Shown piece after piece: positions 3,132 through 37,136 of a stretch of DNA of 38,628 nt (position 1 is the first letter of the stretch; the number at the start of each line of letters is the position of its first letter). The DNA lies in NCBI GenBank assembly GCA_913776885.1, contig CAJYQC010000276.1, forward strand, positions 1 to 38,628, given 5' to 3'. The position numbers and the translations under genes were made by a program. The stretch comes from an uncultured Variovorax sp. GTDB taxonomy: Bacteria > Pseudomonadota > Gammaproteobacteria > Burkholderiales > Burkholderiaceae_C. The notes below the pieces were generated by a model that did not search any database, was not told the origin of the DNA, and saw nothing but the letters and a program-made list of their open reading frames with translations.

Positions 3132-3169
3132 CGCCCGGTCCTGCCCGCCTGTCCGCTTGTCCGCCTGCC

Positions 3170-3571: not shown

Positions 3572-3605
3572 CGCAGCTCCTCGGCGCCCGTGCTTTCAAG
3601 TGCGT

Positions 3606-4790: not shown

Positions 4791-4842
4791 TCGTACCTCT
4801 TGAACAGTGCCGGCGATTCTGCGGACTGCAGGCGCGCGCGCC

Positions 4843-4856
4843 TTGATGCACGTCAA
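4843..4856 (-). promoter_or_regulatory. FNR-type box, symmetric class (TTGATGCACGTCAA on + strand), upstream of desaturase
   Basis: 53 bp from the desaturase start; CAGAAT hexamer 21 nt downstream on minus strand (4821-4816); overlaps the stop codon of the preceding gene. Confidence 0.75.
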
Positions 4857-13522: not shown

Positions 13523-14158
13523 ATGAACTCCCACACACTTCGCAACCTGATGGCGTGCGCGACCCTCGCCGCCGGCGCCTGCGCATTCGCTGCAGACTAC
13601 GCCGCACCCGGCCAGCTCAGCCCGCCCGAGAGCGCAACGCAACGAGCGGTGCAAGAGGCGGGCAAGGCGACGCGCGCAGCGGCCAGCCGGGCCGCACGCG
13701 ATGCGGAAAGGGCGGCCCGCAAGGCAGCCGATGCCGCAAAGGCCGCCGCCGACATGGGCAAGGCCACCACCGGCAAGGTGTCGAGGGCTTTGGCCGAGGG
13801 CATCCGCCAGGCTGCGCGCAAGGCGGCCCAGGCAGCGACACGCCTGGAGGAAAAGACCGCCCTGTCGGCCGCCAAGGCCATCGACGAGGGCAGGGACGCC
13901 GCCCAGGCCGCGCAGGAAGAAAGCCGCAAGGCAGCGCTGGCGTCGAAGGAGGCCCTCGCCAGGGCGGAGGAATCGGTGAGCCGCTCCGCGCAGGCCGGCA
14001 AGGAAGAGGCCGAGAAGGCGGCGCAAGCCACGCGCGAGGCGCTCGACAAGGCGGAGGAAGCGATGCGCTCGGCCGCCAGGGCCGCCGCCGACGCCTCCGC
14101 GCGCACCGTCGAGGCCCTGAAGCGCAAGCCCGCTGCTGCGGGTACCGAAGGAAAGTGA
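13523..14158 (+). CDS. Exported Ala/Lys/Glu/Arg-rich long-helix protein (LEA/phasin/apolipoprotein-like composition)
   Basis: Signal peptide MNSHTLRNLMACATLAAGACAFA then near-continuous amphipathic repeats (AARDAERAARKAADAAKAAADMGKATTGK...). Confidence 0.7.
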   Translation: MNSHTLRNLMACATLAAGACAFAADYAAPGQLSPPESATQRAVQEAGKATRAAASRAARDAERAARKAADAAKAAADMGKATTGKVSRALAEGIRQAARKAAQAATRLEEKTALSAAKAIDEGRDAAQAAQEESRKAALASKEALARAEESVSRSAQAGKEEAEKAAQATREALDKAEEAMRSAARAAADASARTVEALKRKPAAAGTEGK

Positions 14159-15938: not shown

Positions 15939-18329
15939 ATGCCCTCTTCCAGCGAAACGCCGGTCCCGGACGACTTCGCGCTGCTCGACGCCTGGTGGCG
16001 CGCCGCCAACTACCTGTCGGTGGGCCAGATCTACCTGATGGACAACCCGCTGCTGCGCGAGCCGCTCGCGCTGCGCCACATCAAGCCGCGCCTGCTGGGC
16101 CACTGGGGCACGACACCGGGCCTCAACTTCATCTATGCGCACATGAACCGCGCCATCGCCGCGCGGGACCTCGACGCGATCTTCATCGCGGGCCCCGGGC
16201 ACGGCGGCCCGGGCGTGGTCGCCAACACATGGCTCGAAGGCACCTACAGCGAGGTCTATCCGGAGGTCGGGCGGGACGCCGCAGGCCTGCAGCGGCTGTT
16301 CACCCAGTTCTCGTTTCCCGGCGGCATTCCGAGCCACGCGGCGCCCGAGACGCCGGGCTCCATCCACGAGGGCGGCGAGCTCGGCTATTCGCTGCTGCAC
16401 GCCTACGGCGCCGTGTTCGACAACCCGTCTCTGCTCGCCTGCTGCGTGGTGGGCGACGGCGAAGCCGAGACCGGCGCGCTGGCGGCGAGCTGGCACTCCA
16501 ACAAGTTCCTCAACCCCGAGCATGACGGCGCGGTGCTGCCGGTGCTGCACCTCAACGGCTACAAGATCGCCGGCCCGACCGTGCTGGCGCGCATCGGCGA
16601 GGAGGAGCTGACGCAACTCCTGCGCGGCTACGGCCACGAACCGTACTTCGTGGTGGGCGACGAGCCCGCCGACATGCACCGGCAGATGGCGGCGGCGCTG
16701 GACACGGCGCTGGACGGCATCCGCGCCATCCAGGCCGATGTCCGCGCGAACGGCTTCCGCGTCCGCCCGCGGTGGCCGATGATCGTGCTGCGCTCCCCCA
16801 AGGGCTGGACCGGCCCGCGCCAGGTCGACGGCGTGCAGGTCGAGGGCACGTTCCATGCGCACCAGGTGCCGCTCACCGGCTTCGCGGCCGAGCCGCAGCA
16901 CATCGAACTGCTGGAGCGGTGGATGCTGAGCTATCGCCCGCAGGAGCTCTTCGACGCCGACGGCGCCCTGCGCCCCGAGATCGCCGCGATCGCGCCCCGG
17001 GGCGATCGCCGCATGAGCGCCAATCCGCACGCCAACGGCGGGCTGCTGCTGAAGGACCTGGCACTTCCGCCCTTTCGCGCGCACGCGGTGTCCGTGGCAG
17101 CGCCCGGAGCCAACGACGCCGAAGCCACGCGCGTTGCGGGCACCTTCCTGCGCGAGGTCATGCGCGCCAGCGAACGGGAGCGCAACTTCCGCGTGATGGG
17201 ACCGGACGAGACCGCCTCGAACCGGCTCTCGGCCCTGTTCGAGGTGACCGGGCGGACCACGACCGCGCAGGTGTGGCCGGGCGACGAGAACCTCTCGCCG
17301 GACGGCCGCGTCATGGAGGTGCTGAGCGAGCACCTCTGCCAGGGCTGGCTGGAGGGCTACCTGCTGACGGGACGGCACGGTTTCTTCTCGTGCTACGAGG
17401 CCTTCATCCACATCGTCGACTCGATGTTCAACCAGCACGCCAAGTGGCTCAAGGTGACGCGCGGCATCGGCTGGCGCCGGCCGATCGCGTCGCTGAACTA
17501 CCTGCTCACGAGCCACGTCTGGCGCCAGGACCACAACGGCCTCAGCCACCAGGACCCGGGCTTCCTCGACCACGTCGCGAGCAAGAAGGCGGAAGTGGTG
17601 CGGGTGTACCTGCCGCCCGACGCCAACACGCTGCTGTCGGTGGTCGACCACTGCCTGCGCAGCCGCAACTACGTCAACGTCATCGTGGCCGGCAAGCAGC
17701 CCGCGCCCCAGTGGCTGGACATCGAGTCGGCAAGCCGCCACTGCGCCGCGGGCCTGGGCATCTGGGAATGGGCGAGCAACGACGAAGGCGGCTCGCCCGA
17801 CGTGGTGATGGCCTGCGCGGGCGACGTGCCCACGCTGGAGACGCTCGCCGCCGTCGACCTGCTGCGCGGGGAGCTGCCGTCGCTCAAGGTGCGCGTGGTC
17901 AACGTGGTCGACCTGATGGCGCTGCAGTCGCCGCACGCGCACCCGCACGGACTGCCCGATACGGATTTCGATGCGATCTTCACCACCGACCGGCCGGTGA
18001 TCTTCGCGTTCCACGGCTACCCGGCGCTGATCCACCGGCTGATCTACAAGCGGCGCAACCATCCCGGCTTCCACGTGCACGGCTACTGCGAGGAAGGCAC
18101 CACCACCACACCGTTCGACATGACGGTGCTCAACCGGCTGGACCGCTTCCACCTCGCCGCCGACGCGATCGCCCGCGTGCCGCGCCTGTGCGACAGCGCA
18201 GGCCACGTGCAGCAGCACCTGCGCGACCGGCTGCTGGCGCACCGGGCCTACATCACCCGCCACGGCAGGGACATGCCGGAGGTCGAAGACTGGCGCTGGC
18301 CCGGCCAGGCCCCGCGCGAGCAAGGCTGA
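15939..18329 (+). CDS. xfp: Xylulose-5-phosphate/fructose-6-phosphate phosphoketolase
   Basis: [43 protein letters not shown]...[25 protein letters not shown]...[24 protein letters not shown]. Confidence 0.97.
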
Positions 18330-18477: not shown

Positions 18478-19206
18478 ATGAAAAACACGCCCCACATCGT
18501 TGTTCTCGACGACGAAATCGACATCACGCAGCTGCTGGCCAACTATCTCCAGGGCCACGGCTTTCGCGTCACCCAGGTGCACGAGGGCCGCGCCCTCATG
18601 ACGCTGATGGAGACCGACCCCGCCGACCTTGTGCTGCTCGACCTGGGCCTGCCCGGCGAAGACGGCTTCTCGATCGCACGCCGCATGCGCGAACGCTGGC
18701 ATTGCGGCCTGGTGATCGTGACGGGCCGCGGCGATGCGGTGGACAAGGTGGTGGGCCTCGAGGTGGGCGCGGACGACTACGTCACCAAGCCCTTCGACCT
18801 GCGCGAGCTGGCGGCCCGCGTGAAGGCGGTGCTGCGGCGGCTCGCGCCGGCCATGCCCGCTGCACCGGCCGCAGCGGCCGCCTCCCCCGACAAGCTGAGT
18901 TTCGCCGGCTGGCGGCTCGACACCGCCGCGCGCAGCCTGATGAATCCGCGCGGTGAACCGGTGACCTTGACCGGCGGCGAGTTCGATCTGCTGCAGGCCT
19001 TCGCACGCCATCCGGGCCGCGTGCTGTCGCGCGACTTCCTGCTCGAACAGACGCGCGGGCGCGAGGCCGCGCCCTTCGACCGCACGATCGACGTGCAGGT
19101 GGGCCGGCTGCGCAGGAAGATCGAGGCCGACGCCGAGGATCCGCAGCTCATCAAGTCGGTGCGGGGGGCGGGCTACATCCTGGTCCCGCCGGTCTCCCAT
19201 GGCTGA
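18478..19206 (+). CDS. OmpR-family response regulator
   Basis: MKNTPHIVVLDDEIDITQLLANYLQGHGF...LVLLDLGLPGEDGFSIA...GADDYVTKPFDLRELAARVKAVLRR...DRTIDVQVGRLRRKIEADAEDPQLIKSVRGAGYIL. Confidence 0.95.
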   Translation: MKNTPHIVVLDDEIDITQLLANYLQGHGFRVTQVHEGRALMTLMETDPADLVLLDLGLPGEDGFSIARRMRERWHCGLVIVTGRGDAVDKVVGLEVGADDYVTKPFDLRELAARVKAVLRRLAPAMPAAPAAAAASPDKLSFAGWRLDTAARSLMNPRGEPVTLTGGEFDLLQAFARHPGRVLSRDFLLEQTRGREAAPFDRTIDVQVGRLRRKIEADAEDPQLIKSVRGAGYILVPPVSHG

Positions 19207-21316
19207 CACGGCCGGCGAGGCGAGCCAGCCATCCACCGGCGGCGGCCAGGTCCTGCCGTCCGGCATCGACGAGGGCAGCGTCTTCCGCTCGCTGTTCTCC
19301 GCCTATCCCGACTCGCTGCTCGTGGTCGACCAGGCCGGCTGCATCGTGCTTGCCAACCCCTCGGCGGCCGCGCTGCTGGGCTACGCCCCGCACGAGCTCC
19401 TCGGCCTCAACGTCGACGCGCTGGTGCCCGACGGCATCCGCCCGCGCCATGCCTCCTACCGCGAGGCCTACGGCCGTGCCCCGCGCCCGCGTCCCATGGG
19501 CACGCACATGGAGCTCGTGGCCAAGCGCAGGGACGGCAGCGAGGTGATGGTGGAGATCGCGCTGAGCCCGCTGCAGAACCATGGCCTGCCGTTCGTCGTC
19601 GCGGCCATCCGCGACATCGGTGCCTACCCGCGCGTGAAGCAGGCGCTGCAACGCGCGCGCTACAGCGAGCACCTGGCCCAGCTGGGCCGCCTCGCGGTCG
19701 ACACGCGCGACCTGCAGGCGGTGCTCGAGCACGTGCCGGAGATCATCGCCAAGGCCCTGGAGGTGGAGGTCGCGATGGTGTGGCTGCTCGACGCGGGCCG
19801 CTCCGAGTTCCGCGTGGCCAGCGGGGTCGGGCTGGTCGCCGGCGAGGACATCGGCGCGCGCCTGCCGAACCGTCCGGACACGCCGCCAGGCTTCGTTCTC
19901 TCGCAGAACCGGCCGGTGGTCGTGCAGGACTATCGCAAGGAGACGCGGTTTCGCGTGCCGGGAGCCTACCTCGATGCCGGACTGGTGAGCGCCCTCGCGG
20001 TGCCGCTGTCCGACCGGGGCCGCGTCACCGGGATGCTCTCGGTGCGCTCGAGGGAATCCAAGCGCTTCGGCGACGAGGAAGTGCGCTTCCTCGAATCGCT
20101 TTCGAGCCTGCTCGCGACCAGCCTGCAGCGCATGCAGACGGAGGAGGCGCTGAACCACGCCCAGCGGCTGGAGAGCGTCGGCCAGCTCACCGGCGGCATC
20201 GCGCACGACTTCAACAACCTGCTGACCGTGATCCAGGGCAACCTCCAGGTGCTCGAGGAGCTGCCTGCCCTCGCGCACGACGGCTACGCCCAGCAACTGC
20301 TGGGCGCCGCCACCCGCGCTTCGCGGCGCGGTGCGGAGCTCACCGGCAAGCTGCTCGCGTTCTCGCGCCGGCAGGTGCTCCAGCCGGTCGCGGTGGACAC
20401 GCACGCGCTGCTGCATTCGCTGGCCGACATGCTGCGCCGCACGCTCGACCAGCGCATCCGCATCGAGATCGACACGGCCCCCGGCCGGCCGCTGGTGGTG
20501 GCGGACCCGGGCCAGCTCGAATCAGCCCTGCTCAACATCGCGATCAACGCGCGCGACGCCATGCCGGAGGGCGGCACGCTCCAGTTCCGCACCGCCATCT
20601 GCGGTACGCTGCCGACGGTCCTGCGCAACGAGCGCAACGAACCGCAGGCGGGCAACACCGCGCACTTCGTCGCGATCTCCATCGCCGACAGCGGCAGCGG
20701 CATGTCCGACGAAGTCAAGGAGCGTGCCTTCGAGCCCTTCTTCACCACCAAGGAAGCGGGGCGCGGCACGGGACTCGGGCTGAGCACGGTGTACGGCTTC
20801 GTCAGCCAGTCGCGCGGCGCCGTCGCGATCGACAGCGAGATCGGCAGGGGCACCACGGTGACGCTCTACCTCCCGCAGCAGCAGGAGGCATGCTCACCCG
20901 CTGCGATGGAGGAGCACCGCGGCGAAGCGCTGGCGCCCGGATTGCGGGTGATGCTGGTCGAGGACGATGCGGAAGTCCGCAAGGTGGTGGAGAACTTCCT
21001 GCACACGCTGGGCTGCGAGATCGTCATCGTCGCGCCCACTGCCGAGCAGGCGCTGGCCGCAATGGACGCGGGCGCGGGCGACTTCGACCTGCTGCTCAGC
21101 GACATCGCGCTGGGCGCAGGCATGCGCGGGACGCGGCTGGCCGCCGAGGTTCAGCAGCGCCTCCCGGGGGCCGCGGTGCTGCTGATGTCGGGCTTCTCGT
21201 CGGAACTCCTCGATGCCGACCGCGAGGTGCCTCAGAGCTGGGAACTGCTTCGCAAGCCCTACACGCGCTCCGAACTTGCGCAGGCCATGGCCAGGGTCCT
21301 GGCCGGCCGCGGCTGA
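19199..21316 (+). CDS. Hybrid sensor histidine kinase (PAS-GAF-HisKA-HATPase-REC)
   Basis: [31 protein letters not shown] region; H-box [18 protein letters not shown]-box [39 protein letters not shown]; 8-bp overlap with the response regulator. Confidence 0.93.
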
Positions 21317-21340: not shown

Positions 21341-22111
21341 CTACTGCAGCATCGCGGGCGCAGGCGACAGGCAGCGCTGCACGAAGGCGGAGAGAGCGCC
21401 CACGTCGGGAATCTGCACGTCGCGGCGCCCCTTGGTCGCGAACCCGATGACGTTGTCGCGCGCCAGGCGCGACAGCGCGCGGCTCACGCTCTCGAGCGTC
21501 ATGCCCAGGTAGTTGCCGATCTCGGCGCGCGTCATGCGCAGCGTGATCTCGTCGGCGCGCATGCCGCGCTCCGCGAGCGACTCCGCCCAGTAGCGCAGGA
21601 AATCGGCGACGCGGGCATCGGCCGGGAGGGTGCACACGGACATCAGCGAATCCCGGTCGTGCGCGATCTCGCGACTCATCGCGGCATGCAGCACCTGCAG
21701 CAGATCGGGACGGGTGATGCAGGCTGCCAGCAGCGCCTCGTACGACACCACCCAGACCTCTCCGGTATCCATGGACACCGCGTCGCACGAGTAGCGCCCG
21801 CTGGCGATGCCGTCGAAGCCGAGCCAGTCGCCGCGGAACTTCAGGCCCACCACCTGCTCGCGGCCGTCGGCCGACAGGTTCACGATCTTGAAGAAGCCCG
21901 AGTTGAGGATGTAGAGATTGCCGAAGCGCTCGCCGGCCTGGTAGATCGTGTCACCCATGTGGACCACGCGGCGCTGCGGCCTGAGCTGCTCGCCGAGCAG
22001 CCGCAGCGTCTCGGCGGTGCTGCGGTTTGCGCCATCGTGGGCGGCGGCGCCGGGCGTGCCCGGGCCCGACGGAGAAGAAGCGATCTTCGAGGCGGCGGCG
22101 GTGTCGAGCAT
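21341..22111 (-). CDS. Crp/Fnr-family transcriptional regulator without FNR-type Fe-S cysteines
   Basis: cNMP-binding-like fold (GDTIYQAGERFGNLYILNSGFFKIVNLSADGREQVVGLKFRGDWLGFDGIASG) and HTH TRAEIGNYLGMTLESVSRALSRLARDNVI with FNR-like E..SR recognition-helix residues. Confidence 0.92.
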   Translation of the reverse strand: MLDTAAASKIASSPSGPGTPGAAAHDGANRSTAETLRLLGEQLRPQRRVVHMGDTIYQAGERFGNLYILNSGFFKIVNLSADGREQVVGLKFRGDWLGFDGIASGRYSCDAVSMDTGEVWVVSYEALLAACITRPDLLQVLHAAMSREIAHDRDSLMSVCTLPADARVADFLRYWAESLAERGMRADEITLRMTRAEIGNYLGMTLESVSRALSRLARDNVIGFATKGRRDVQIPDVGALSAFVQRCLSPAPAMLQ

Positions 22112-22279: not shown

Positions 22280-22293
22280 TTGCGCTGCATCAA
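22280..22293 (-). promoter_or_regulatory. Candidate FNR-type box, asymmetric class (minus strand TTGATGCAGCGCAA)
   Basis: Lies between the divergent Crp/Fnr gene and OTC-like gene; spacing fits the 22346 gene better. Confidence 0.45.
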
Positions 22294-22345: not shown

Positions 22346-22849
22346 ATGCCGCCCACCCATACCGTCCGCAGTCCCGAGGCCGACCTCCAGCTCTCACCGT
22401 TCAACGCGGCGAGCCTTCTGGCCCGCGCGCTCATCCTGCAGAGGGCCAGCGTCGACGGCACCACGCGCGCGCTGCTGCGCGGCAAGAACCTGGGGCTGGT
22501 CTACGAGGCGCAGCCCGGCGAATCGCTGGCCTTCTTCCGCCGCGCCGCCGAGGAGCTCGGCGCCCACGTGGCGGTGATGCGCTCGAGCCTGTCGGCGGCG
22601 AGCACGCCGCAGGAAGTGCAGCACACGGCCCGCATGCTCGGGCGCCTCTACGATGCCGTCGAATGCCAGGGGCTCGACCCCGCGCTCGTGCGCTGCATCG
22701 GACAGCACGCGGGCATTCCGGTCTTCGAGGGTGCCGCGACTAAGACCCATCCGGCCAGCCAGCTCGCCGGACTGCTCCCGGACGCGACCGCGCCGGCCGA
22801 CAACCGCCGCTTCATCCTGCAGGCGCTGCTGCTCGAAGCAGTCGGCTGA
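22346..22849 (+). CDS. Orphan ornithine/aspartate carbamoyltransferase N-terminal-domain-like protein (167 aa)
   Basis: LLRGKNLGLVYEAQPGESLAFFRRAAEELGAHVAVM...QEVQHTARMLGRLYDAVECQGLDPALVRCIGQHAGIPVFEGAATKTHPASQLAGLL; no C-terminal ornithine-binding domain. Confidence 0.75.
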   Translation: MPPTHTVRSPEADLQLSPFNAASLLARALILQRASVDGTTRALLRGKNLGLVYEAQPGESLAFFRRAAEELGAHVAVMRSSLSAASTPQEVQHTARMLGRLYDAVECQGLDPALVRCIGQHAGIPVFEGAATKTHPASQLAGLLPDATAPADNRRFILQALLLEAVG

Positions 22850-22983: not shown

Positions 22984-23637
22984 ATGAAGACCGATACCCA
23001 ATTGCGCAACGACATCCAGGCCGAACTGAGCTGGGCTCCCGAGGTCAAGTCCTCCGACATCGGCGTGATCGTCAAGGACGGCGTGGTCACGCTCACCGGC
23101 CATCTGTCCAGCCATGCCGAGAAATACGCGGTCGAGCGCGCCGTGCAACGCGTGTACGGCGTGAAGGCGCTGGCGGTCGAACTCACGGTGAAGCTGCCCT
23201 TCGACAACCAGCGCACGGATGCCGACATCGCCCTGGCGGCCGAGCGCGCGCTCGAATGGAACGTGCTCGTGCCCGACGGCAAGATCCACCCGATGGTCGA
23301 GAAGGGCTGGCTCAGCCTGACCGGCGAGGTCGAATGGGACTACCAGCGCAGCGCCGCCGAAGTGGCCGTGCGCGACCTGATGGGCGTGACCGGCGTGTCG
23401 AACCTCGTGAAGGTCAAGCCCAGGGTGAGCCCCGCCGACGTCGAGAAGAAGATCCACGACGCGCTCTCGCGCCAGGCCGACCGCGAGGCCCGCAAGCTGT
23501 CGATTGCGGTGGACGGCTCCCACGTCACGCTGCGCGGCACCGTCCATTCCTGGTCGGAGCGCGATGCCGTGCAAGGCGCCGCCTGGTCGACGCCGGGCGT
23601 CACGGTGGTGGTGAACGACCTGCTCGTGGACGCCTGA
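22984..23637 (+). CDS. Triple BON-domain protein, no signal peptide
   Basis: MKTDTQLRNDIQAELSWAPEVKSSDIGVIVKDGVVTLTGHLSSHAEKYAVERAVQRVYGVKALAVEL... plus two more BON repeats. Confidence 0.93.
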   Translation: MKTDTQLRNDIQAELSWAPEVKSSDIGVIVKDGVVTLTGHLSSHAEKYAVERAVQRVYGVKALAVELTVKLPFDNQRTDADIALAAERALEWNVLVPDGKIHPMVEKGWLSLTGEVEWDYQRSAAEVAVRDLMGVTGVSNLVKVKPRVSPADVEKKIHDALSRQADREARKLSIAVDGSHVTLRGTVHSWSERDAVQGAAWSTPGVTVVVNDLLVDA

Positions 23638-24401: not shown

Positions 24402-25448
24402 ATGCACAGCACTTCCGATACGCGCGGCATCGAGCGGCCCTTCGCGGCCGCGCCGACCATGCAGGCCATGGTGCTGAGCGCGGCGCTGCTGCCGCTGGAG
24501 TGCGAGCGGCGCAGCATCCCGCAGCCCGGCCCGGGCGAGCTGCGCCTGCGCGTGCTGGCATGCGCGGTCTGCCGCACCGACCTGCATGTGGTCGATGGCG
24601 AGTTGCCGCTGCCGGTGTTGCCCATCGTGCCGGGGCACGAGATCGTCGGCGTCGTCGAGGCCATGGGTGCGGGCGTGCAGGGCCATCGCATCGGCGAGCG
24701 CGTGGGCGTGCCGTGGCTGGGCCACAGCTGCGGCTGCTGCTCCTTCTGCGCGGAGGGCCGCGAGAACCTCTGCGACACGCCGCGCTTCACGGGCTATCAC
24801 CGCGACGGCGGCTTCGCGAGCCATGTGATCGCCGAGGCGGCGTTCTGCCTGCCGCTTGCCATGCCCGAAACCGACGCCACGCGCATCGCCCCGCTGCTGT
24901 GCGCGGGCCTGATCGGCTGGCGCAGCCTCAAGGCCGCGGGCGACGGCGCGCGCCGGCTGGGCATCTTCGGATTCGGCGCCGCGGCGCACCTGGTGACGCA
25001 GGCGGCGATCGCGCAGGGCCGCGAGGTCTGCGCATTCACCCAAGCCGGGGACACGGCGACACAGTCCTTCGCGCGCAGCCTGGGGGCCAGCTGGGCCGGC
25101 GGCTCCAACGAGCGCCCGCCCGAGCCCCTGGATGCCGCGATCATCTTCGCGCCCGCCGGCGAGCTGGTGCCGGCGGCGCTGCGCGTGGTGCGCAAGGGTG
25201 GACGGGTGGTGTGCGGGGGCATCCACATGAGCGACATTCCCGCCTTCGCCTACCGGCTGCTGTGGGAGGAACGCAGCGTGGTCTCGGTGGCCAATCTCAC
25301 GCGCGCGGATGCGCGGGAATTCCTCGACTTCGTGCAGACGCATCCGCTGCAGGTCCACGTCAGGACCTATCCGCTCGCGCAGGCCAACGAAGCACTGGCC
25401 GATCTGCGCGCCGGCCGCATCGAGGGCGCTGCGGTGCTGGTGCCCTGA
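24402..25448 (+). CDS. Zinc-dependent alcohol dehydrogenase
   Basis: VLACAVCRTDLHVVDGELPLPVLPIVPGHEIVGVVEAMG...CGCCSFCAEGRENLCDTPRFTGYHRDGGFASHV. Confidence 0.93.
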   Translation: MHSTSDTRGIERPFAAAPTMQAMVLSAALLPLECERRSIPQPGPGELRLRVLACAVCRTDLHVVDGELPLPVLPIVPGHEIVGVVEAMGAGVQGHRIGERVGVPWLGHSCGCCSFCAEGRENLCDTPRFTGYHRDGGFASHVIAEAAFCLPLAMPETDATRIAPLLCAGLIGWRSLKAAGDGARRLGIFGFGAAAHLVTQAAIAQGREVCAFTQAGDTATQSFARSLGASWAGGSNERPPEPLDAAIIFAPAGELVPAALRVVRKGGRVVCGGIHMSDIPAFAYRLLWEERSVVSVANLTRADAREFLDFVQTHPLQVHVRTYPLAQANEALADLRAGRIEGAAVLVP

Positions 25449-25472
25449 TGCGCCGCCGCCGTGATCCTCGGC

Positions 25473-25632
25473 TCAGAGTTCCAGCGATTCGCGGTATTCG
25501 GGCACGGTGCACGGCCAGCCGTGCGCTCCTCGATGGCCAGCCGCACCGCGTCGGCAGCCGCCGGCCGCCATGGCTCAGCAGGTACTTCGAGCCGGTGACG
25601 GTGCCCGTGCCGCCGAGGAAGTCGATGCGCAT
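25473..25632 (-). pseudogene. Collapsed remnant of MBL-fold/beta-CASP RNA-metabolizing hydrolase
   Basis: N-terminus MRIDFLGGTGTVTGSKYLLSHGGRR fused directly to C-terminal remnant ADAVRLAIEER / HGWPCTVPEYRESLEL-stop with frame change; whole catalytic middle missing. Confidence 0.7.
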
Positions 25633-25639
25633 GGACGCC

Positions 25640-26464
25640 TCAGTGCGACATCAGCACCGGCAGGGTCATCCACTGCAGCATGGACAGCGTGGCGCCGCCC
25701 ATCACCCACTCGCGCGCCCTGCTGTGGCCGTAGCAGCCCATCACCAGCAGGTCCGCGCTCAGGTCGGCGGCCAGCGAGAGGAGCCTGTTGCCGACGTCGT
25801 CGTCCTTGTCGCCACCGGGATGCAGGCGGACCTCGCCCACGCCCTGCAACCGCAGATAGGCCTGCAGGCTCTGCAGCGATTCGTTCGCGCCCTCGCCGTA
25901 GGCCACCGCGTCCACCCGGCCCGCCTTGCGCAGCCATGGCAGCGCGGCACTCACGGCGCGCGCGGCCTCGCGGGTCTCCTTCCAGGCCACCAGCACCTTG
26001 CCGCCGACAGGGCCGACCGGCCCGGCATAGGGCAGCACCAGCGCCGGCCGGCCGCTTTGCACCAGCAGGCTTGGCAGGAAGTCGCCGGGGAGTTCGCCGT
26101 CCATCGGGTCGTTGCGGTCGCGCTGCCCCAGGACCAGCAGGTCGGCATACAAGGCACGCCGGGCGAACCCCCACGGCCCGTCGCTCTCCGGCTCGCTCCA
26201 GTGCAGGCGCGGCGAGCCCGCACCGTGCTGCATGAAGGTGGCGTGCATCTTGTCGCGTGCGTCCTTGTCGATCTCCTGCATGATCGCGACCGCCTCCGCG
26301 GCCGCTTCGATGGCATACGGATAGCGCATGAGCGCGGACACGGTGCACGGCTGCGCCGTGACCTCGGCGTCGAAGGTCTCCGCGAGTTCGCGGGCGAGCT
26401 TGATGCGCCCCACCGTGCGGGCCGAGCCGTCGAGATGAAGCAGGATGGATCTGGGGTTCTGCAT
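25640..26464 (-). CDS. Universal stress protein, two-domain (274 aa)
   Basis: MQNPRSILLHLDGSARTVGRIKLARELAETFDAEVTAQ...DLLVMGCYGHSRAREWVMGGATLSMLQWMTLPVLMSH. Confidence 0.9.
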   Translation of the reverse strand: MQNPRSILLHLDGSARTVGRIKLARELAETFDAEVTAQPCTVSALMRYPYAIEAAAEAVAIMQEIDKDARDKMHATFMQHGAGSPRLHWSEPESDGPWGFARRALYADLLVLGQRDRNDPMDGELPGDFLPSLLVQSGRPALVLPYAGPVGPVGGKVLVAWKETREAARAVSAALPWLRKAGRVDAVAYGEGANESLQSLQAYLRLQGVGEVRLHPGGDKDDDVGNRLLSLAADLSADLLVMGCYGHSRAREWVMGGATLSMLQWMTLPVLMSH

Positions 26465-27967: not shown

Positions 27968-29392
27968 TCAGACCACGCGCGAGAAGCGCGTGCGGCTGGC
28001 GCGGCAGTGGCGGTCGAACACCATCGCGACCGCGCGCACGAGGAACCAGCCTTGCTCGGTGACAACCAGGTCGTGATCGCTCAGCCGCACCAGGCCCTCG
28101 GCGACCAGCGGGCCGAGCGCTGCGAACTCGGTAGCGAAGTAGCGCCGGAAATCGACGGCGAAGGCTTCGCCGATGGCGTCGAAGTCGAGCCGTCCGCGGC
28201 ACATCAGCGCCATGATGACCTCGCGGCGCAGCAGGTCGTCGCGCGACAGCGAAAGGCCCCGCACCACCGGCATGCGCCCCTGGTCGAGCAGGGCGCGGTA
28301 GTCGTCCAGGCTCTTGGCGTTCTGGCTGTAGGTCGCACCCACGCGGCCGATGCCCGACACGCCGAGGGCGATCAGGTCGCCCTCGGGCCGCGTGCCGTAG
28401 CCCTGGAAGTCGCGGTGCAGACGCCCTTGCTTCTTCGCGATGGCGAGCGGATCGTCGGGCAGCGCGAAATGGTCCATGCCGATGTAGACATAGCCGGCGT
28501 CGGTGAGCTTCGCGATCGCATTGGCGAGCATGCGCACACGCGCAGCTGCGTCGGGCAGCTCCTCGGCATGGATGCGCCGCTGCGGCTTGAAGCGCTCGGG
28601 CAGGTGCGCATAGGCATACAGCGCGATGCGGTCGGGCCGCAGCCTGCAGACCTGAGCGAGCGTGCGCCCGAAGGAAACGTCGTTCTGCCGCGGCAGGCCG
28701 TAGATCAGGTCCACGTTGATCGACTCGAAACCCAGCGAGCGCGCGTCGTCCATCAGCGCGAAGACCTGCGAAGCCGGCTGGATGCGGTGCACCGCCTCCT
28801 GCACGGCCGGATCGAAATCCTGCACGCCGAAGCTCAGGCGGTTGAAGCCCAGCGCAGCGAGGTTGGCGAGCCGCTGCGCGTCCACCGTGCGCGGATCGAT
28901 CTCGATGGAACGCTCGCCGCCGGGCACGAAGGCGAAGGCCCGGTGCAGCAGCGCCATGAGCTCGCCGAGCTCCGCGTCGTCGAGGAAGGTCGGCGATCCG
29001 CCGCCCAGGTGCAGATGGGACACGGTGGCGCTGCGGCCGAGCTGCGCGACCTGCAGCTCGACTTCGCGCCCGAGGTACGCGAGGTACTGGCGGCCCCATT
29101 CGCGGTGGCGCGTCACGATCTTGTTGCAGGCGCAGTAGTAGCACAGCGACTCGCAGAACGGGATGTGGACGTACAGCGACAGCGGCGGCGCCTCGGGGCC
29201 GGCCGCGCGGCGCTGTGCCAGCGCGCGCACGTAGTCGTTCTCGCCGAATGCTTCGACGAAGCGGTCGGCGGTGGGATAGGAGGTGTAGCGCGGGCCGGGC
29301 ACGTCGAACTGCCTCAGCAGGTCGATCGGCAGCGGGGCCTGCACGGTTCCGGTTTCGGTTCCGGTGTCGGGAGCGAGGGCAATGGAAGTCAT
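27968..29392 (-). CDS. hemN: Oxygen-independent coproporphyrinogen III oxidase
   Basis: LLRQFDVPGPRYTSYPTADRFVEAFGENDY...LSLYVHIPFCESLCYYCACNKIVTRH; radical-SAM CxxxCxxC motif. Confidence 0.97.
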   Translation of the reverse strand: MTSIALAPDTGTETGTVQAPLPIDLLRQFDVPGPRYTSYPTADRFVEAFGENDYVRALAQRRAAGPEAPPLSLYVHIPFCESLCYYCACNKIVTRHREWGRQYLAYLGREVELQVAQLGRSATVSHLHLGGGSPTFLDDAELGELMALLHRAFAFVPGGERSIEIDPRTVDAQRLANLAALGFNRLSFGVQDFDPAVQEAVHRIQPASQVFALMDDARSLGFESINVDLIYGLPRQNDVSFGRTLAQVCRLRPDRIALYAYAHLPERFKPQRRIHAEELPDAAARVRMLANAIAKLTDAGYVYIGMDHFALPDDPLAIAKKQGRLHRDFQGYGTRPEGDLIALGVSGIGRVGATYSQNAKSLDDYRALLDQGRMPVVRGLSLSRDDLLRREVIMALMCRGRLDFDAIGEAFAVDFRRYFATEFAALGPLVAEGLVRLSDHDLVVTEQGWFLVRAVAMVFDRHCRASRTRFSRVV

Positions 29393-29664
29393 GGGGAGGG
29401 TGTGCGCATGGGAGCGTCGGGCTGGACGGGCTGCACGGGTGCAGGCGGCGCGGTCAGCAGCACCGTGCAGGCGCTCGAAGCCGCGGCCATCAGCCAGAAG
29501 ACGAAGAAGGCGCCCGTGTAGATGCCCTGGCGCGTCATGTGCAGCGCATCGGCGCCGCAGAAGGTGTTGATCGGATCGACCAGCGCGAAGACCAGCACCT
29601 CCATGCCGCAGGCCACCAGGAAGGAAGGCCATAGGACGGCGGCGACCAGCCGCATCGCGTTCAT
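29389..29664 (-). CDS. Hypothetical membrane protein of the cco locus (91 aa)
   Basis: MNAMRLVAAVLWPSFLVACGMEVLVFALVDPINTFCGADALHMTRQGIYTGAFFVFWLMAAASSACTVLL; ATGA-type overlaps with both neighbours. Confidence 0.8.
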   Translation of the reverse strand: MNAMRLVAAVLWPSFLVACGMEVLVFALVDPINTFCGADALHMTRQGIYTGAFFVFWLMAAASSACTVLLTAPPAPVQPVQPDAPMRTPSP

Positions 29665-29966
29665 GGCGCCGCCTTCGGGCCCGCGGACGGCACGTCCTGC
29701 GCGGGCGTCATCGCGTGGTTGCGGCCGCTCATCGCGGGGAGGTTCTTCTTCGCGGCCAGGGTTCTGTTGATCTCCACCCCTTCGCGGTAGTAGTCGGGCG
29801 ACACCAGCGCGTCGGGGCTGCGCCAGGCCAGCCAGAAGGTCACGAAGCTCGCGATCATCACGACCGCCGGGCCGCCGATCACCATCCACAGCAGCGGATG
29901 ACGCCACCAGGACTTGTCGGCCTCTGCGGCCAGCGGGTTCATCGTCGAACCGGTTGCTGCATTCAT
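29661..29966 (-). CDS. ccoH: FixH/CcoH-family protein
   Basis: SWWRHPLLWMVIGGPAVVMIASFVTFWLAWRSPDALVSPDYYREGVEINRTLA. Confidence 0.85.
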   Translation of the reverse strand: MNAATGSTMNPLAAEADKSWWRHPLLWMVIGGPAVVMIASFVTFWLAWRSPDALVSPDYYREGVEINRTLAAKKNLPAMSGRNHAMTPAQDVPSAGPKAAP

Positions 29967-29976
29967 TCCAGACCTT

Positions 29977-31398
29977 TCAGCGCGGCACCAGGAAGGCCGC
30001 TTTCTCGGAAACCTGCGCGCCGCTGCCTTCCTCGCGGATGCTGAAGTGCACCGTGTGCGATCCGGCGGGCACGCTGCCGTAGGGCACCTGCAGCCGCACT
30101 GCGACCCAGCGCGACTGGGCCGCGTCGACGGCGACCGGCTCGTCCGGCGACACGCCGAGCCCTTCGAGCCCGCTCGCCGCGATGCGGTAGCGCTGCGGCT
30201 GTTCGGTGGCGTTCATGATCTGCAGCCGATAGACGTTCTCGAGCCTGCCGCCCTCGGCGATGCGCGCGAGCGCGGCCCGGTCGCGCACCACGTCGACCTT
30301 CAGCGGCGAGCGCACCACCAGGCTGGTCAGCAGGCCGGTCACCAGCAGCAGCAGGATCGCGGTGTAGACCAGCACCCGCGGGCGCAGCACGCGCCGCAGC
30401 AGCTGCCGGCGCGACCATCCGGCCTCCATGCCGTTCTGCGTGTCGTAGCGGATCAGCCCGGGCGCATAGGCCATCTTCCGCATGACCGTGTCGCAGGCGT
30501 CGGCGCAGAGGCCGCAGCCGATGCACTCGTACTGCAGGCCCTTGCGGATGTCGATGCCGGTGGGGCATACCTGCACGCACAGGCCGCAGTCGATGCAGTC
30601 GCCGAGCGCCATCGACCGCGGATCGGGGCCCTTGCGGCGCGGCGCGCGCGGCTCGCCGCGCCGGGGGTCGTAGGTCACGATCAGGGTGTCGCGGTCGAAC
30701 ATCGCGCTCTGAAAGCGCGCATAAGGGCACATGTACTTGCAGACCTGCTCGCGCATGAAGCCGGCATTGCCGTAGGTCGCGAAGCCGTAGAAGAACACCC
30801 AGAAGACCTCCCACGAGCCCATCTGCGTCTGCAGGAAGGCCATGCCGAGTTCGCGGATCGGCGTGAAGTAGCCCACGAAGGTGAAGCCGGTCCACATCGC
30901 GATGCCGATCCACAGCAGGTGCTTGGCCCACTTCTTCACCAGCTTCTCGAGCGACATCGGCTCGGCGTCCAGCCGTATGCGCGCGGTGCGGTTGCCCTCG
31001 ATGCGCTGCTCCACCCACATGAAGATCTCGGTGTAGACGGTCTGCGGGCAGGCATAGCCGCACCACAGCCTTCCCGCCACCGCGGTGAAGAGAAAGAGCG
31101 AGAGCGCGCTGATGACCAGCAGGCCCGAGAGGTAGATCAGGTCCTGCGGGTACAGCACCAGCCCGAAGATGTAGAAGCGCCGCGCCGCAAGGTCGAACAG
31201 CACCATCTGGCGCCCGCCCCATTCCACCCAGGGCATGCCGTAGAACACGAGCTGCGTAAGAAAGACCAGCGCCCAGCGCCAGCGCGCGAACACGCCGCGC
31301 ACGGTGCGGGGATAGATCTTCTTCGAGGCCTCGTACAGGCCGACCTCCTCGCCGCCTCCGGGGTTGGCGTTCGCGATGGGAATGATCCTGCGGGTCAT
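29977..31398 (-). CDS. ccoG: Cytochrome c oxidase accessory protein CcoG (RdxA/FixG)
   Basis: IYPRTVRGVFARWRWALVFLTQLVFYGMPW...GDCIDCGLCVQVCPTGIDIRKGLQYECIGCGLCADACDTVM; two 4Fe-4S motifs. Confidence 0.97.
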   Translation of the reverse strand: MTRRIIPIANANPGGGEEVGLYEASKKIYPRTVRGVFARWRWALVFLTQLVFYGMPWVEWGGRQMVLFDLAARRFYIFGLVLYPQDLIYLSGLLVISALSLFLFTAVAGRLWCGYACPQTVYTEIFMWVEQRIEGNRTARIRLDAEPMSLEKLVKKWAKHLLWIGIAMWTGFTFVGYFTPIRELGMAFLQTQMGSWEVFWVFFYGFATYGNAGFMREQVCKYMCPYARFQSAMFDRDTLIVTYDPRRGEPRAPRRKGPDPRSMALGDCIDCGLCVQVCPTGIDIRKGLQYECIGCGLCADACDTVMRKMAYAPGLIRYDTQNGMEAGWSRRQLLRRVLRPRVLVYTAILLLLVTGLLTSLVVRSPLKVDVVRDRAALARIAEGGRLENVYRLQIMNATEQPQRYRIAASGLEGLGVSPDEPVAVDAAQSRWVAVRLQVPYGSVPAGSHTVHFSIREEGSGAQVSEKAAFLVPR

Positions 31399-31413
31399 GG
31401 CGCTGCGCCGGCT

Positions 31414-32331
31414 TCAGGGCGTGGCCGCGGGCGCATTGTTGGACAGCCCCCAGACGTAGGACGCGACCATCCGGATCTGCGCCTCGGTGAGGCGGCCTTC
31501 CTGCGCGGGCATCTCGTTGTGCTTGCCCGAGTTGATCATCTGGACGATGGCGGCCTCGCCGTAGCCGTGCAGCCAGATCCTGTCGCTGAGATTGGGCGCG
31601 CCCAGGGCCTGGTTGCCCACGCCGCCAATGCCGTGGCAGGCGGCGCATGCCGTGAACTTCGCCTTGCCGAGGCCGGCGCGCACCGAGTCGTGCGGCTCGC
31701 CCGACAGGCTCAGCACGTAGTTGGCGACGTTCTTCACGTCGTCGGGCGTGCCGACGGCAGCGGCCATGGGCGGCATCACGCCCACCCGCCCCCTGGTGAT
31801 GGTCTCGACGATCTTCTCGGGCGTGCCGCCGTAGAGCCAGTCCTTGTCCGTGAGGTTGGGAAAGCCCTTGCTGCCGCGCGCATCGGAGCCGTGGCACTGC
31901 GCGCAGTTGCCCATGAAGAGCCGCTCACCGATCGCATGGGCCTGCGGATCGCGTGCGATGTCCTCGACCGTCATCGCGGCGTACTTCGCATAGACGGGTG
32001 CGAGCTCCTGCGTGGCCCTGGCCACTTCCGCGTCGTACTCGCCGCGCGAAGTCCAGTCGGACTTCCCGCGGAAGCTTCCCAGCCCCGGAAACATGGCGAG
32101 GTAACCCAGCCCGAAGACGATGGTCAGCACGAACAGGCCGACCCACCACATCGGCAGCGGGTTGTTGGCCTCGCGCAGGTCCTCGTCCCACACGTGGCCG
32201 GTGGTGTTGTCGGCGCTGGCGGCGACGCGCTTGCGCGCCGTGAGCCACAGCAGGATCACGCAGCCGAGGATGCTCAGCAGCGAGACCACTGCCACGTAGT
32301 CGGACCAGAAACGGCTGATGAAATCGCTCAT
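31414..32331 (-). CDS. ccoP: cbb3-type cytochrome c oxidase subunit III (diheme)
   Basis: TTGHVWDEDLREANNPLPMWWVGLFVLTIVFGLGYLAMFPGLG...CAQCHGSDARG...CAACHGIGG. Confidence 0.97.
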   Translation of the reverse strand: MSDFISRFWSDYVAVVSLLSILGCVILLWLTARKRVAASADNTTGHVWDEDLREANNPLPMWWVGLFVLTIVFGLGYLAMFPGLGSFRGKSDWTSRGEYDAEVARATQELAPVYAKYAAMTVEDIARDPQAHAIGERLFMGNCAQCHGSDARGSKGFPNLTDKDWLYGGTPEKIVETITRGRVGVMPPMAAAVGTPDDVKNVANYVLSLSGEPHDSVRAGLGKAKFTACAACHGIGGVGNQALGAPNLSDRIWLHGYGEAAIVQMINSGKHNEMPAQEGRLTEAQIRMVASYVWGLSNNAPAATP

Positions 32332-32344
32332 CGTGCTTCTCCGT

Positions 32345-32485
32345 TCAATCCTGCTCGAAGGGCAGGCGTGCCGCTTCCTGGAAGCCGGGCGCGTTGCGGC
32401 GCGAATACGCCCAGATCACGATGCCGATGAAAAGCGCGAAGCACACGACGGTGGCGGCGATGCGCAGGGTGGTGAGGTCGATCAT
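32345..32485 (-). CDS. ccoQ: cbb3-type oxidase subunit CcoQ (46 aa)
   Basis: Manual translation MIDLTTLRIAATVVCFALFIGIVIWAYSRRNAPGFQEAARLPFEQD between ccoP and ccoO; not in ORF track. Confidence 0.9.
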   Translation of the reverse strand: MIDLTTLRIAATVVCFALFIGIVIWAYSRRNAPGFQEAARLPFEQD

Positions 32486-32509
32486 GGTTGTGCGTCCTTT
32501 GCCGCTTGC

Positions 32510-33139
32510 TTACTTGAGCGCCAGGCCCAGCGACTGCAGGTAGGCCACCGTGGCCTCCATCTCGGTCTTGCCCCGGACGTCTTCCGCGGCCCCGGCGATC
32601 TCGGCATCGGTGTAGGGCACGCCGACGCGGCGCAGCGCGCGCATGTGGGCGGGCAGCGACTCGGCATCAACCGGCGTCTTCTCCAGCCAGGTATAGGCCG
32701 GCATGTTCGACTCGGGCACGACGTCGCGCGGGTTGTTCAGGTGGATGCGGTGCCACTCGTCGCTGTACTTGCCGCCCACGCGCTGCAGGTCGGGGCCGGT
32801 GCGCTTGCTGCCCCACTGGAACGGGTGGTCGTAGACGAACTCGCCGGCCACCGAGTAGTGGCCGTAGCGCAGCGTCTCCGAGCGGAAGGGCCGGATCATC
32901 TGCGAGTGGCAGTTGTAGCAGCCCTCGCGCAGGTAGATGTCGCGCCCGGCCAGCTGCAGCGGCGTGAGCGGCTTGACGCCCTGCACCGCCTCGGTGGTCG
33001 ACTTCTGGAAGAACAGCGGCACGATCTCGACGAGGCCGCCGACGGCCACCACCACGAGGATCAGCACGATCATCAGCAGGTTGTTGGTCTCGATCTTCTC
33101 GTGCGAGAAGCCGCCGGCGCTGGAGGTCTTGGAATTCAT
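32510..33139 (-). CDS. ccoO: cbb3-type cytochrome c oxidase subunit II
   Basis: [77 protein letters not shown]. Confidence 0.97.
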
Positions 33140-33148
33140 CGTGCGTCC

Positions 33149-34588
33149 TCAGGCATGGGCCATGGCAGGGGGCGGGATCTCGGCGCGCACCGCACGCCCG
33201 GAGATGACGGTCATCCAGACGTTCCAGGCCATCAGCAGCATCCCGCTGAGGTAGAGCACGCCGCCGATCACGCGCACCAGGTAGAACGGGAAGGTGGCCT
33301 TCACGCTCTCCACGAAGGTGTAGGTGAGCGTGCCGTCGGGGTTGATCGAGCGCCACATGAGACCCTGCATCACGCCGGCGATCCACATCGCGGCGATGTA
33401 CAGCACGATGCCGATGGTGGCGATCCAGAAGTGCACCTCGATGGCTCGCACGCTGTACATGGCGGTGCGGCCGTACATGCGCGGGGTCAGGTAGTAGAGC
33501 GAGCCCATGGTGATGAAGCCCACCCAGCCGAGCGCACCGGAGTGCACGTGGCCGATGGTCCAGTCGGTGTAGTGGCTCAGGGCGTTGACGGTCTTGATGG
33601 ACATCATCGGCCCCTCGAAGGTCGACATGCCGTAGAACGAGAGCGCGACGATCAGGAAGCGCAGGATCGGGTCGGTGCGCAGCTTGTGCCAGGCGCCCGA
33701 GAGCGTCATCACGCCGTTGATCATCCCGCCCCAGCTCGGCGCGAGCAGGATCAGCGAGAACACCATGCCCAGCGACTGCGTCCAGTCGGGGAGCGCGGTG
33801 TAGTGCAGGTGGTGCGGGCCCGCCCACATGTAGGTGAAGATCAGCGCCCAGAAGTGCACGATCGACAGCCGGTACGAATACACCGGCCGGCCCGCCTGCT
33901 TGGGGATGTAGTAGTACATCATCCCGAGGAAGCCGGCCGTGAGGAAGAAGCCCACTGCGTTGTGGCCGTACCACCACTGCACCATCGCGTCCTGCACGCC
34001 GGCGTAGGCCGAGTAGCTCTTCATCCAACCTGCCGGAACCACGGCGCCATTGACGATGTGCAGCAGGGCGACCGCGATGATGAAGGCGCCGAAGAACCAG
34101 TTGGCCACGTAGATGTGGCGCACCTTGCGCTTGCCGATGGTGCCGAAGAACACGATGGCATAGGCCACCCAGACCACCGCGATCAGCAGGCCGATGGGCC
34201 ATTCGAGTTCCGCGTACTCCTTGCCGCGCGTGTAGCCCATCGGCAGGCTGATGGCGGCGGCCACGATCACCGCCTGCCAGCCCCAGAACACGAAGGACGC
34301 GAGCCCGGGCGCGAAGAGCCGCACCTGGCAGGTGCGCTGGACCACGTGGAAGCTGGTCGCCATCAGCGCGCAGCCGCCGAACGCGAAGATGACCGCGTTG
34401 GTGTGCAGCGGCCGCAGGCGCCCATAGCTGAGCCATGGAATGCCGAGGTTGAGCTCGGGCCACGTCAGCTGGGAGGCGATGACCACGCCCACCAGCATGC
34501 CGACAACGCCCCACACCACGGACATGAGCGCGAACTGCCGCACGACCGTGTCGTCGTATTCCGCGGCGGGAGGTCTGGGTTCTTGCAT
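33149..34588 (-). CDS. ccoN: cbb3-type cytochrome c oxidase subunit I
   Basis: [80 protein letters not shown]...; start placed at 34588 inside longer ORF. Confidence 0.97.
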
Positions 34589-34643
34589 CGTGGTGCCATT
34601 GATTGAGTTACGGGCAGTTTCCGTGGGTAACCTGCCCGAGGGC

Positions 34644-34657
34644 TTGATGCAGATCAA
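34644..34657 (-). promoter_or_regulatory. Consensus FNR box (TTGATGCAGATCAA) upstream of ccoN
   Basis: Perfect TTGAT-N4-ATCAA; GAAACT on minus strand (34621-34616) 22 nt downstream; overlaps the ccoS stop codon. Confidence 0.88.
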
Positions 34658-34791
34658 TCGCCGTGCAGGATGCGCTCGCCTTCCATGTCGACGTCTTCGA
34701 ACTGGCCGCGCTCGATGGCCCACCACAGGCCGCCGAGGATCGCGAGGACCAGCATCACGGACAGCGGCACGAGGAGAAAGAGGATGTCCAT
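34654..34791 (-). CDS. ccoS: cbb3-type oxidase assembly protein CcoS (45 aa)
   Basis: [45 protein letters not shown]. Confidence 0.95.
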
Positions 34792-37136
34792 CAGCGCACG
34801 CCTTCTCCAGCGCCAGCGCGCGAGAGCCGCGCCGCGTTGAGAACGACGACGAGCGAGCTCGCGGCCATGCCGAGGCCCGCGAGCCAGGCCGGCAGCCAGC
34901 CGGCCACCGCCAGCGGCACGCACAGCGCGTTGTAGCCCGCGGCCCACGCGAGGTTCTGCTGCACCACGCGCAAGGTCCTGCGGGCCTGCGCGACCGCCTG
35001 CGGAATGCTGGCGAGCCTGTCGCCGAGCACGACGAAGTCGGCGTGCGCGCGCGACAGCGGCACCGAACGGCCGAAGGCGAACGAGGCATCCGCGCGCGCC
35101 AGCGAGGGGCCGTCGTTGAGGCCGTCGCCCACCATCGCGATCCGCCGGCCTTCTGCCTGCAGGCGCCACAGCGCGTCGAGCTTGTCCTCCGGCGTGCAGC
35201 CGCCCTGCGCGAAGTCGATGCCGCAGCGCGCGGCGATCTCCCTCGCGGCCGCGTCCCTGTCGCCCGAAAGCAGCCGCACGGTGATCCCTTGCGCGCGCAA
35301 TGCCGAGACGGCCTCTGCCGCATCGGCGCGAAGCTCCTCGGCCAGCACGAAGCTCGCGAGCCAGCCCTGCGCGTCGGCCAGATGGACCTGCGCGGCCTCG
35401 ATTTCCAGCGGGGCCACCTCGCAGAAGCCCGCCGAGCCCAGGCGCACGCGCTGTTGCGTGCCGGCTGCCGCACGCATGCGGCGCAGGCGACCCTCGATGC
35501 CCTGGCCCGCCGCCTCGACGACCTGCTGCGCGACCCAGCCGGGCGGTGAGCGGAACTGTGCGCTCCATGCGCTCACCAGTGACTGCGCCACGGGGTGCAG
35601 CGACTGCGCGGCCAGCGCGGCTGCCATCTCGAGTGCGTCGCCGGGCCGCAGGCCCTGTCGGCAATAGATGCGCTCCAGCCGCGGCACGTCGCCCGTCAGC
35701 GTGCCGGTCTTGTCGAACACCACCGTGTCGACCGATGCCAGGGCCTCCAGCGCCTGCAGGTTGGAGGTCATGACGCCGCCGCGCGCCAGCGTGCCCGCAC
35801 TGGCGAGCATCGCGGCAGGCGTCGCGAGCGAGAGCGCGCACGGGCAGGTCACGATGAGCACCGCGACCGCCACCATCAGCGCCCTGCCCGGGTCCGTCGG
35901 CCACCAGGACGCGGCCGCGATGGCCGCCGCCGCGAGCACCCCGACGAGAAAGGGCCGCGCCACCCGGTCGGCCAGCAGCGCAAGTCGCGGCTTGCGCGAG
36001 GCGGCGCTTTCCATCAACCGGACGATCTGCGCGAAGCGCGTGCCCTCGCCCACCGATTCGAGGCGCACCTGCACCGCCGCCGAGAGGTTGTGGCTGCCCG
36101 CGAGCACGCGGTCGCCGCACGCACGGCGCACCGGCCGGGACTCACCGGTCAGCAGGGCCTCGTCGGCACTGGTGTCGCCTTCGATCAGCACACCATCGGC
36201 CGGGAAGGCCTCGCCGGGGCGCACCCGCACCACGTCGCCCACGACGAGCCGGCGCACGGCCACGCGCTTCCAGCTGCCGTCGGCGGCGAGGCGGTCGATG
36301 CCGTCGGGCAGCCGGTTCATCAGCGCATCGAGCGCACCGGCCGTGCGCTCGCGCAGCCGCGCTTCCAGCCATCGGCCGGTGAGCAGGAAGAAGACGAACA
36401 TCGTCAGCGAGTCGAAGTACACCTCGTGGCCGAGCGGTCCACCGGCATCGAAGGTGGCGGCGCTGCTGACCGCGAAGGTCGCGAACACGCCGAAGGCCAC
36501 GGGCAGGTCCATTCCGACCCGGCCCATGCGCAGGTCGCGCCAGGCACTGCGGAAGAAGGGACCGCAGGAGAAGAGCACCACCGGCAGCGTCAGCACCCAG
36601 GAGGCCCAGCGCAGCAGCTGCGCCGAATCGGCGCCCATGTCGCCAGGCCGCGCGACGTATGCCGGGTAGGCGTACATCATCACCTGCATCATGCAGAAGC
36701 CGGAGACCAGCCAGCGCCACAGCGCCAGCCGGGATTCGCGCTGGCGCAACGCCCTCACGGAGCGGTCGCAGCCCGGCAGCAGCCGGTAGCCCGCTTTCGC
36801 GCTCGCCTCGAACCAGCGCGAGGGCCTTGTCTGCGCCGGCGACCAGACCACGCGCGCGCGCCGGCTGGCCGCGTTGACTTGCACCTCGCGCACGCCGGGC
36901 ACACGGCGCAGCGCGTCCTCGACCGTGAACGCGCAGGCTGCGCAGCTCATGCCTTCGACCATGACCTGCGACTCCCAGCAGTCGCCATCGGCAGCACCGA
37001 GCTCGTGCCCGAACGCGGGCCACTCGGCGGGATCGTCGAGCACCTGCCAGGCGTCTTCAGCGACGGGGGTGGGGCTGGTGGGGCTGGTGGGAACGGCGCG
37101 GATCGAAAGGCGATCCCGGGCGAGCGTGGCATTCAT
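34791..37136 (-). CDS. ccoI: Heavy-metal (copper) translocating P-type ATPase for cbb3 assembly
   Basis: HMA motif [12 protein letters not shown] motif [44 protein letters not shown]. Confidence 0.96.

Follow-up and report, generated by a model that had tools for sequence, protein, structure and literature searches.

The 167-codon gene examined here lies in a 38,628-nucleotide stretch of DNA from an uncultured Variovorax sp. (the window) and most likely encodes a non-catalytic member of a regulatory set for low oxygen. The protein, referred to here as mini-OTC, probably has a regulatory or accessory role and no enzymatic one, and it is probably switched on at low oxygen. Taken as a whole, the explanation that we prefer is that an exapted, non-catalytic remnant of the catabolic ornithine carbamoyltransferase (OTCase) ArcB is induced at low oxygen and serves a circuit composed of a kinase, a response regulator, and a Crp-family protein; we give it about an even chance of being correct. 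Related loci can be read as a series that starts with a working enzyme in its operon, passes through a single copy in decay and forms whose second domain has shrunk, and ends in a stable protein of one domain; the promoter box and the regulator are kept throughout. Mini-OTC suggests that the N-domain of a transcarbamylase, helix 12 included, can exist on its own. It is also a concrete candidate for a new part of the Burkholderiales low-oxygen circuit. The features discussed are collected in Table 1.

Table 1. Positions in the window of mini-OTC, its sequence elements, and neighboring genes
Feature	Position	Strand	Basis
Phosphoketolase Xfp, same low-oxygen cluster; recurrent, not constant neighbor	15939..18329	+	
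PhoB/OmpR-type response regulator, overlaps kinase gene	18478..19206	+	
Hybrid histidine kinase, PAS-GAF-HisKA-HATPase-REC	19199..21316	+	
FixK/FNR-like Crp-family regulator, divergent, without N-terminal FNR cysteines; co-occurs with mini/midi gene	21341..22111	-	
FNR/FixK-type box TTGCGCTGCATCAA, 8/10 consensus positions, 66 nt upstream of mini-OTC ATG	22280..22293	+	
Mini-OTC gene, 167 aa, OTCase carbamoyl-phosphate (CP) domain plus terminal helix 12, without ornithine domain	22346..22849	+	
PGESL, codons 57-61, in position of carbamoyl-phosphate motif STRTR	22514..22528	+	Alignment and site table
Cys107, family signature; Y of EYRG in ArcB	22664..22666	+	
His135, most widely kept residue of HPTQ	22748..22750	+	
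Helix equivalent to OTCase helix 12 (AENRxHTIKAxLVATL), codons 150-166	22793..22843	+	
BON-domain protein, frequent, not constant neighbor	22984..23637	+	
Universal-stress-type protein (USP); no Pfam match at 1e-5; L192 orthologue annotated universal stress protein	25640..26464	-	
hemN, ccoG/fixG, cbb3 oxidase (fixP, fixO, COX1), ccoI; low-oxygen respiration, downstream	27968..37136	-	

An N-domain without its active site

The preliminary description had recognized an intact reading frame that follows the N-terminal fold pattern of OTCases and ATCases, with PGESL replacing STRTR, no domain for the second substrate, and a divergent Crp/Fnr gene next to it; all of these observations hold. The ATG start at 22346 is conserved across close relatives, and the protein matches Pfam OTCace_N above the cut-off (E=8.4e-10), the NCBIfam model for catabolic OTCase (E=5e-19), and the solved OTCases 9y83 from Burkholderia xenovorans (E=1.7e-18) and 1dxh, the ArcB of P. 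aeruginosa (E=1e-16). The profile matches and the conserved start rule out a chance reading frame or a wrong strand assignment, while a gene broken by sequencing error is ruled out by the presence of the same short gene, intact, in many independent genomes. An AlphaFold2 model built from 36 window-and-locus sequences reaches a pLDDT of 88.1 and a pTM of 0.82, and OTCases head the result of a Foldseek search with this model, with 9y83 at E=4e-10 and a TM of 0.64 relative to query length. The structural likeness to OTCases is thus clear, and close relatives carry the same short gene intact rather than a full-length, disrupted one, so neither of the two findings named beforehand as refuting the preliminary description was seen.

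Residues 57-61 align with STRTR, HPTQ reads HPAS, and EYRG reads ECQG, so the window's protein lacks these enzyme motifs. Pfam gives no match in mini-OTC to PF00185, the Asp/Orn-binding domain that carries SMG and HCLP, and the domain is missing from the alignment too. The C-terminus, ADNRRFILQALLLEAVG, aligns with the terminal helix of OTCases, and the corresponding ADNRR... helix at residues 150-166 is modeled at high confidence. In transcarbamylases, helix 12 is part of the N-domain, which in putrescine transcarbamylase comprises residues 1-130 and 301-315 (PMC3282769). Because the last 17 residues match this N-domain element, only the middle domain is missing. Judged from alignment and model, mini-OTC is therefore a whole N-domain from which the enzyme's middle has been lost internally, with the C-terminus kept. 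Its OTCase ancestry and the loss of the functional residues are almost certain, and the predicted protein, as far as its residues tell, cannot transfer carbamoyl groups.

A Burkholderiales family under moderate constraint

The label "orphan" in the preliminary description has to be dropped, as 92 relatives without STRTR were collected in Burkholderiales. The set used for the family tree consists of 67 short "mini" forms (158-192 aa, the window's included) and 25 "midi" forms (about 234-275 aa) with a shrunken second domain. Mini or midi genes are carried by 24 of the 61 relatives' genomes; many more members came from 401 sampled genomes of the taxonomic family, and few carriers were found among 399 genomes at the order level. 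At the class level, 369 sampled genomes gave none beyond the window's own at E<=1e-36, so this sample shows no spread outside Burkholderiales at that threshold. Some genomes have two members, as in the pairs L045/L047 and L052/L064: G019 and G030 each combine a mini with a midi-type copy, and G012 has two midis, each adjoining its own Crp copy.

According to the site table, STRTR is absent from all 92 relatives; the Arg of EYRG is replaced across them, the Gln of the 80s loop is lost throughout, and no mini has HCLP or SMG. One midi form, modeled with a pLDDT of 84 and a pTM of 0.84, aligns with OTCases for almost its full length. In helix 12, Lys has become Gln in 98% of the family. The Tyr of EYRG is Cys in 88 of 92 and V, I, or W in the other four. 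These exceptions, together with the Tyr in ArcB, suggest that Cys107 probably occupies a buried site, and the same facts leave a redox role for it unsupported. The conserved residues are mostly residues of the fold and thus mark out no interaction surface. One relative, QRF62904.1 (168 aa), is annotated "ornithine carbamoyltransferase" in GenBank. This public annotation is misleading for metabolic models, and the name should not be used for the mini-OTC gene. Among the titles and abstracts retrieved, no papers on a "truncated ornithine carbamoyltransferase" and no relevant pseudoenzyme papers were found.

Values of dN/dS range from 0.11 to 0.38 for mini pairs and from 0.33 to 0.56 for pairs containing a midi or 192-aa form. 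Between the window and V. paradoxus 110B, the ratio is 0.32 for mini-OTC, 0.16 for the Crp gene, and 0.10 for the kinase gene. These ratios indicate that mini-OTC is under purifying selection, and the constraint is moderate, weaker than on Crp or kinase, because the mini gene evolves faster than either in the same genome pair.

Association with a FixL/FixK-like regulatory set

Of the 61 genomes, 25 have a Crp orthologue. A mini or midi gene is present in 24 of these 25, whereas all 36 genomes without Crp lack one (Fisher p=4e-16, with no correction for kinship), and the kinase also co-occurs with the gene. The Crp gene is the divergent neighbor at 74 of 91 loci; at the other 17 it is not, and several of these still adjoin the kinase or the regulator gene. 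The co-occurrence could reflect shared membership in a regulon and not a physical partnership. The only Crp-positive genome without a mini is G004, in which the gene is cleanly absent, with no trace left; its kinase is split into two overlapping pieces (G004:C2:432961-435047), and its Crp gene lies elsewhere.

By homology, the kinase is FixL-like: its PAS domain is related to the haem PAS domains of FixL (E=2e-17) and DosP (E=2e-13), and His84, which aligns with the haem-ligand His of FixL, is conserved in 55 of 55. The Crp protein is nearest to the FNR type (E=2e-26; FixK2, E=5e-16), and no N-terminal cysteine cluster was found in it. Of 92 genes (a set that includes the lone arcB of locus L154), 82 have an FNR-type box that matches the consensus in at least eight of ten positions in the 130 nt upstream, compared with 4.7% of random windows drawn from the same loci. 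On the proposed mechanism, falling oxygen would cause the FixL-like hybrid kinase and the response regulator to raise the level of the FixK/FNR-like Crp protein, which would bind the FNR-type box 66 bp upstream and switch on the mini-OTC gene. Low-oxygen induction through this route is likely on the grounds of homology and the conserved box.

Other parts of the window deserve brief mention. At 25396-25701, it keeps only the two ends of a metallo-beta-lactamase-fold hydrolase, joined with about 19 shared bases; in V. paradoxus 110B (L001), the same hydrolase has about 456 codons and lies between the ADH and USP genes. The approximately 1.2 kb of this region gone from the window reflect either a deletion or an assembly join. 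Positions 2157-6241 on the minus strand show similarity to AMP-binding enzymes in overlapping frames, with only a partial Pfam match, and possibly represent a frameshifted or mis-framed gene. A 211-aa protein encoded at 13523-14158 on the plus strand is 34% Ala and 8% Lys and has no Pfam match.

Probable origin from the arc operon of the same locus

At locus L152 (genome G546), a complete arcDABC operon, arcD-arcA-arcB-arcC, is found between the Crp and USP genes, beside the response regulator and kinase genes. It encodes an amino-acid permease, an arginine deiminase, an ArcB in which STRTR and HCLP are both present, and a carbamate kinase-type amino-acid kinase. In the same place, L154 has a lone arcB of 311 aa with STRER and HGLS, downstream of the box TTGACGGGCATCAA, which is also present upstream of the L152 arc genes and in L153. 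L154 comes from genome G706, which has the same genus code as G546. G706 itself holds a natural before-and-after pair, with an intact arcB elsewhere in the genome at L153 and the lone decaying arcB at L154.

In the tree, the mini and midi forms make up one clade (support 100/100). Its kinship to the ArcBs of L152, L153, and L154 is favored with weak support (48/92), and the common position therefore weighs more as evidence for an origin in the arc locus. Position and intermediates together make it very probable that mini-OTC descends from the arc operon that once stood in this place. An AU test rejects the view that the short form arose only once (p=3.7e-7), and at least four changes in the presence of domain 2 are required by well-supported branches; domain 2 would thus have been lost repeatedly, with helix 12 kept every time. 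The ancestor would have been the catabolic OTCase of an arginine deiminase operon under low-oxygen control. The operon would then have been lost around the gene while the carbamoyl-phosphate site decayed, and the ornithine domain would have shrunk and been removed, the complete N-domain (CP domain and helix 12) being kept. The retained helix 12, the gene family, and the arc-operon origin go beyond the preliminary description.

Possible roles

The preliminary description had also proposed a repurposed, non-catalytic protein with a binding or regulatory function. The first part is well borne out: the CP-binding residues have disappeared from all 92 relatives, mini pairs show purifying selection, the box is conserved, and the gene co-occurs with one regulator. 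The second part is what we infer. Our tentative choice is that mini-OTC, a single domain that may form oligomers, would bind other proteins and serve the kinase/regulator/Crp circuit with which it is inherited, either as an accessory or as a feedback part. A more specific course of events is doubtful, namely that an enzyme of arginine catabolism, captured by the oxygen circuit that had formerly controlled it, became a single-domain signaling protein feeding back on the FixL-like kinase or the FixK-like regulator, after which the second domain was dropped at least four times in parallel. Alternatively, the emptied CP site may have been rebuilt for a different small molecule, with the ligand state relayed to the Crp protein or the kinase. 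The ligand would be an anion or an acyl phosphate, for example acetyl phosphate made by the phosphoketolase encoded nearby. Retention of the HPTQ His in 82 of 92 relatives and of the helix 12 Arg in 53 of 67 minis is consistent with such a sensor, as is the recurrence of the phosphoketolase gene. However, this neighbor is not constant, the whole phosphate loop is gone, the positions concerned are variable and often Asp or Glu, which disfavors anions, and the family has no new invariant polar cluster; we consider a metabolite sensor unlikely.

It is also quite unlikely that the gene is a functionless relic, still expressed from the retained arc promoter and heading for loss. Such a relic would fit the stepwise decay series, the relaxed constraint relative to Crp and kinase, and the clean absence from G004. 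Nevertheless, none of the 16 pairs reaches a dN/dS of 0.6 and no mini pair reaches 0.4, disrupted reading frames are absent from the main set of relatives (one TAG-containing match occurs in the 401-genome family sample), the fold core and helix 12 survive at least four independent domain losses, and most genes keep the box. Selection thus disfavors a relic, and so does the fact that fold and promoter box were kept in parallel lines. Another reading has mini-OTC join trimers of a genuine OTCase, ArgF or ArcB, as a regulatory or dominant-negative subunit that adjusts how carbamoyl phosphate is used when oxygen is low. The kept domain is the CP domain, which makes the trimer contacts in OTCases. 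The enzymes are trimers in which adjacent subunits share active sites (PMC3282769). Against this, 21 of the 24 carriers among the 61 genomes have no arcA, on which ground an accessory of the arginine deiminase pathway is rejected as well; co-occurrence tracks Crp and kinase, not the arc genes; and identity to ArgF is only about 20-25%. Moreover, ArgF-like matches occur in nearly all genomes, so ArgF does not explain the distribution of the family. Mixed trimers are very improbable. The intact modeled N-domain fold would suit an active carbamoyltransferase whose ornithine domain is supplied in trans, but STRTR, the 80s-loop Gln, and the EYRG Arg are lost throughout the relatives and no separate PF00185 protein is found among the scanned neighbors. 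Such activity is nearly excluded because these residues are lost.

Comparison with known systems

ArcB (EC 2.1.3.3; 1dxh from P. aeruginosa, 9y83 from B. xenovorans) shares the N-domain fold and helix 12 with mini-OTC (E about 1e-16 to 1e-18), and the ancestral arc locus adjoins the same Crp gene. In contrast to ArcB, mini-OTC has no STRTR, EYRG Arg, ornithine domain, SMG, or HCLP, and comprises 167 instead of about 335 aa. The lxa locus of Burkholderia cenocepacia resembles the window in its clustering of USPs, a BON protein, and other low-oxygen genes (PMC6127331). The words "ornithine" and "carbamoyl" are absent from the main text of that paper, which names no gene that would make mini-OTC a member of the described locus.

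The part of PMC7888657 drawn on here describes the rhizobial hFixL-FxkR-FixK pathway, in which FixK binds TTGAT-N4-ATCAA. On that description, the pathway shares with the present set a FixL-like PAS hybrid kinase, a response regulator, a FixK/FNR-like protein, boxes of the TTGAT-N4-ATCAA type, and nearby cbb3 and hemN genes. What sets the Burkholderiales apart from that description is a protein derived from an OTCase, which almost always belongs to the set. FixT is a small protein that acts as a feedback inhibitor of the FixL kinase, and it resembles mini-OTC only in the proposed role, that of a small product under the circuit's own control (PMC7078487). FixT consists of one receiver domain that carries a four-Cys Fe-S site, whereas mini-OTC belongs to another Pfam family and fold and has one conserved Cys. 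FixT is thus a precedent as far as the role is concerned, but not where the protein itself is concerned.
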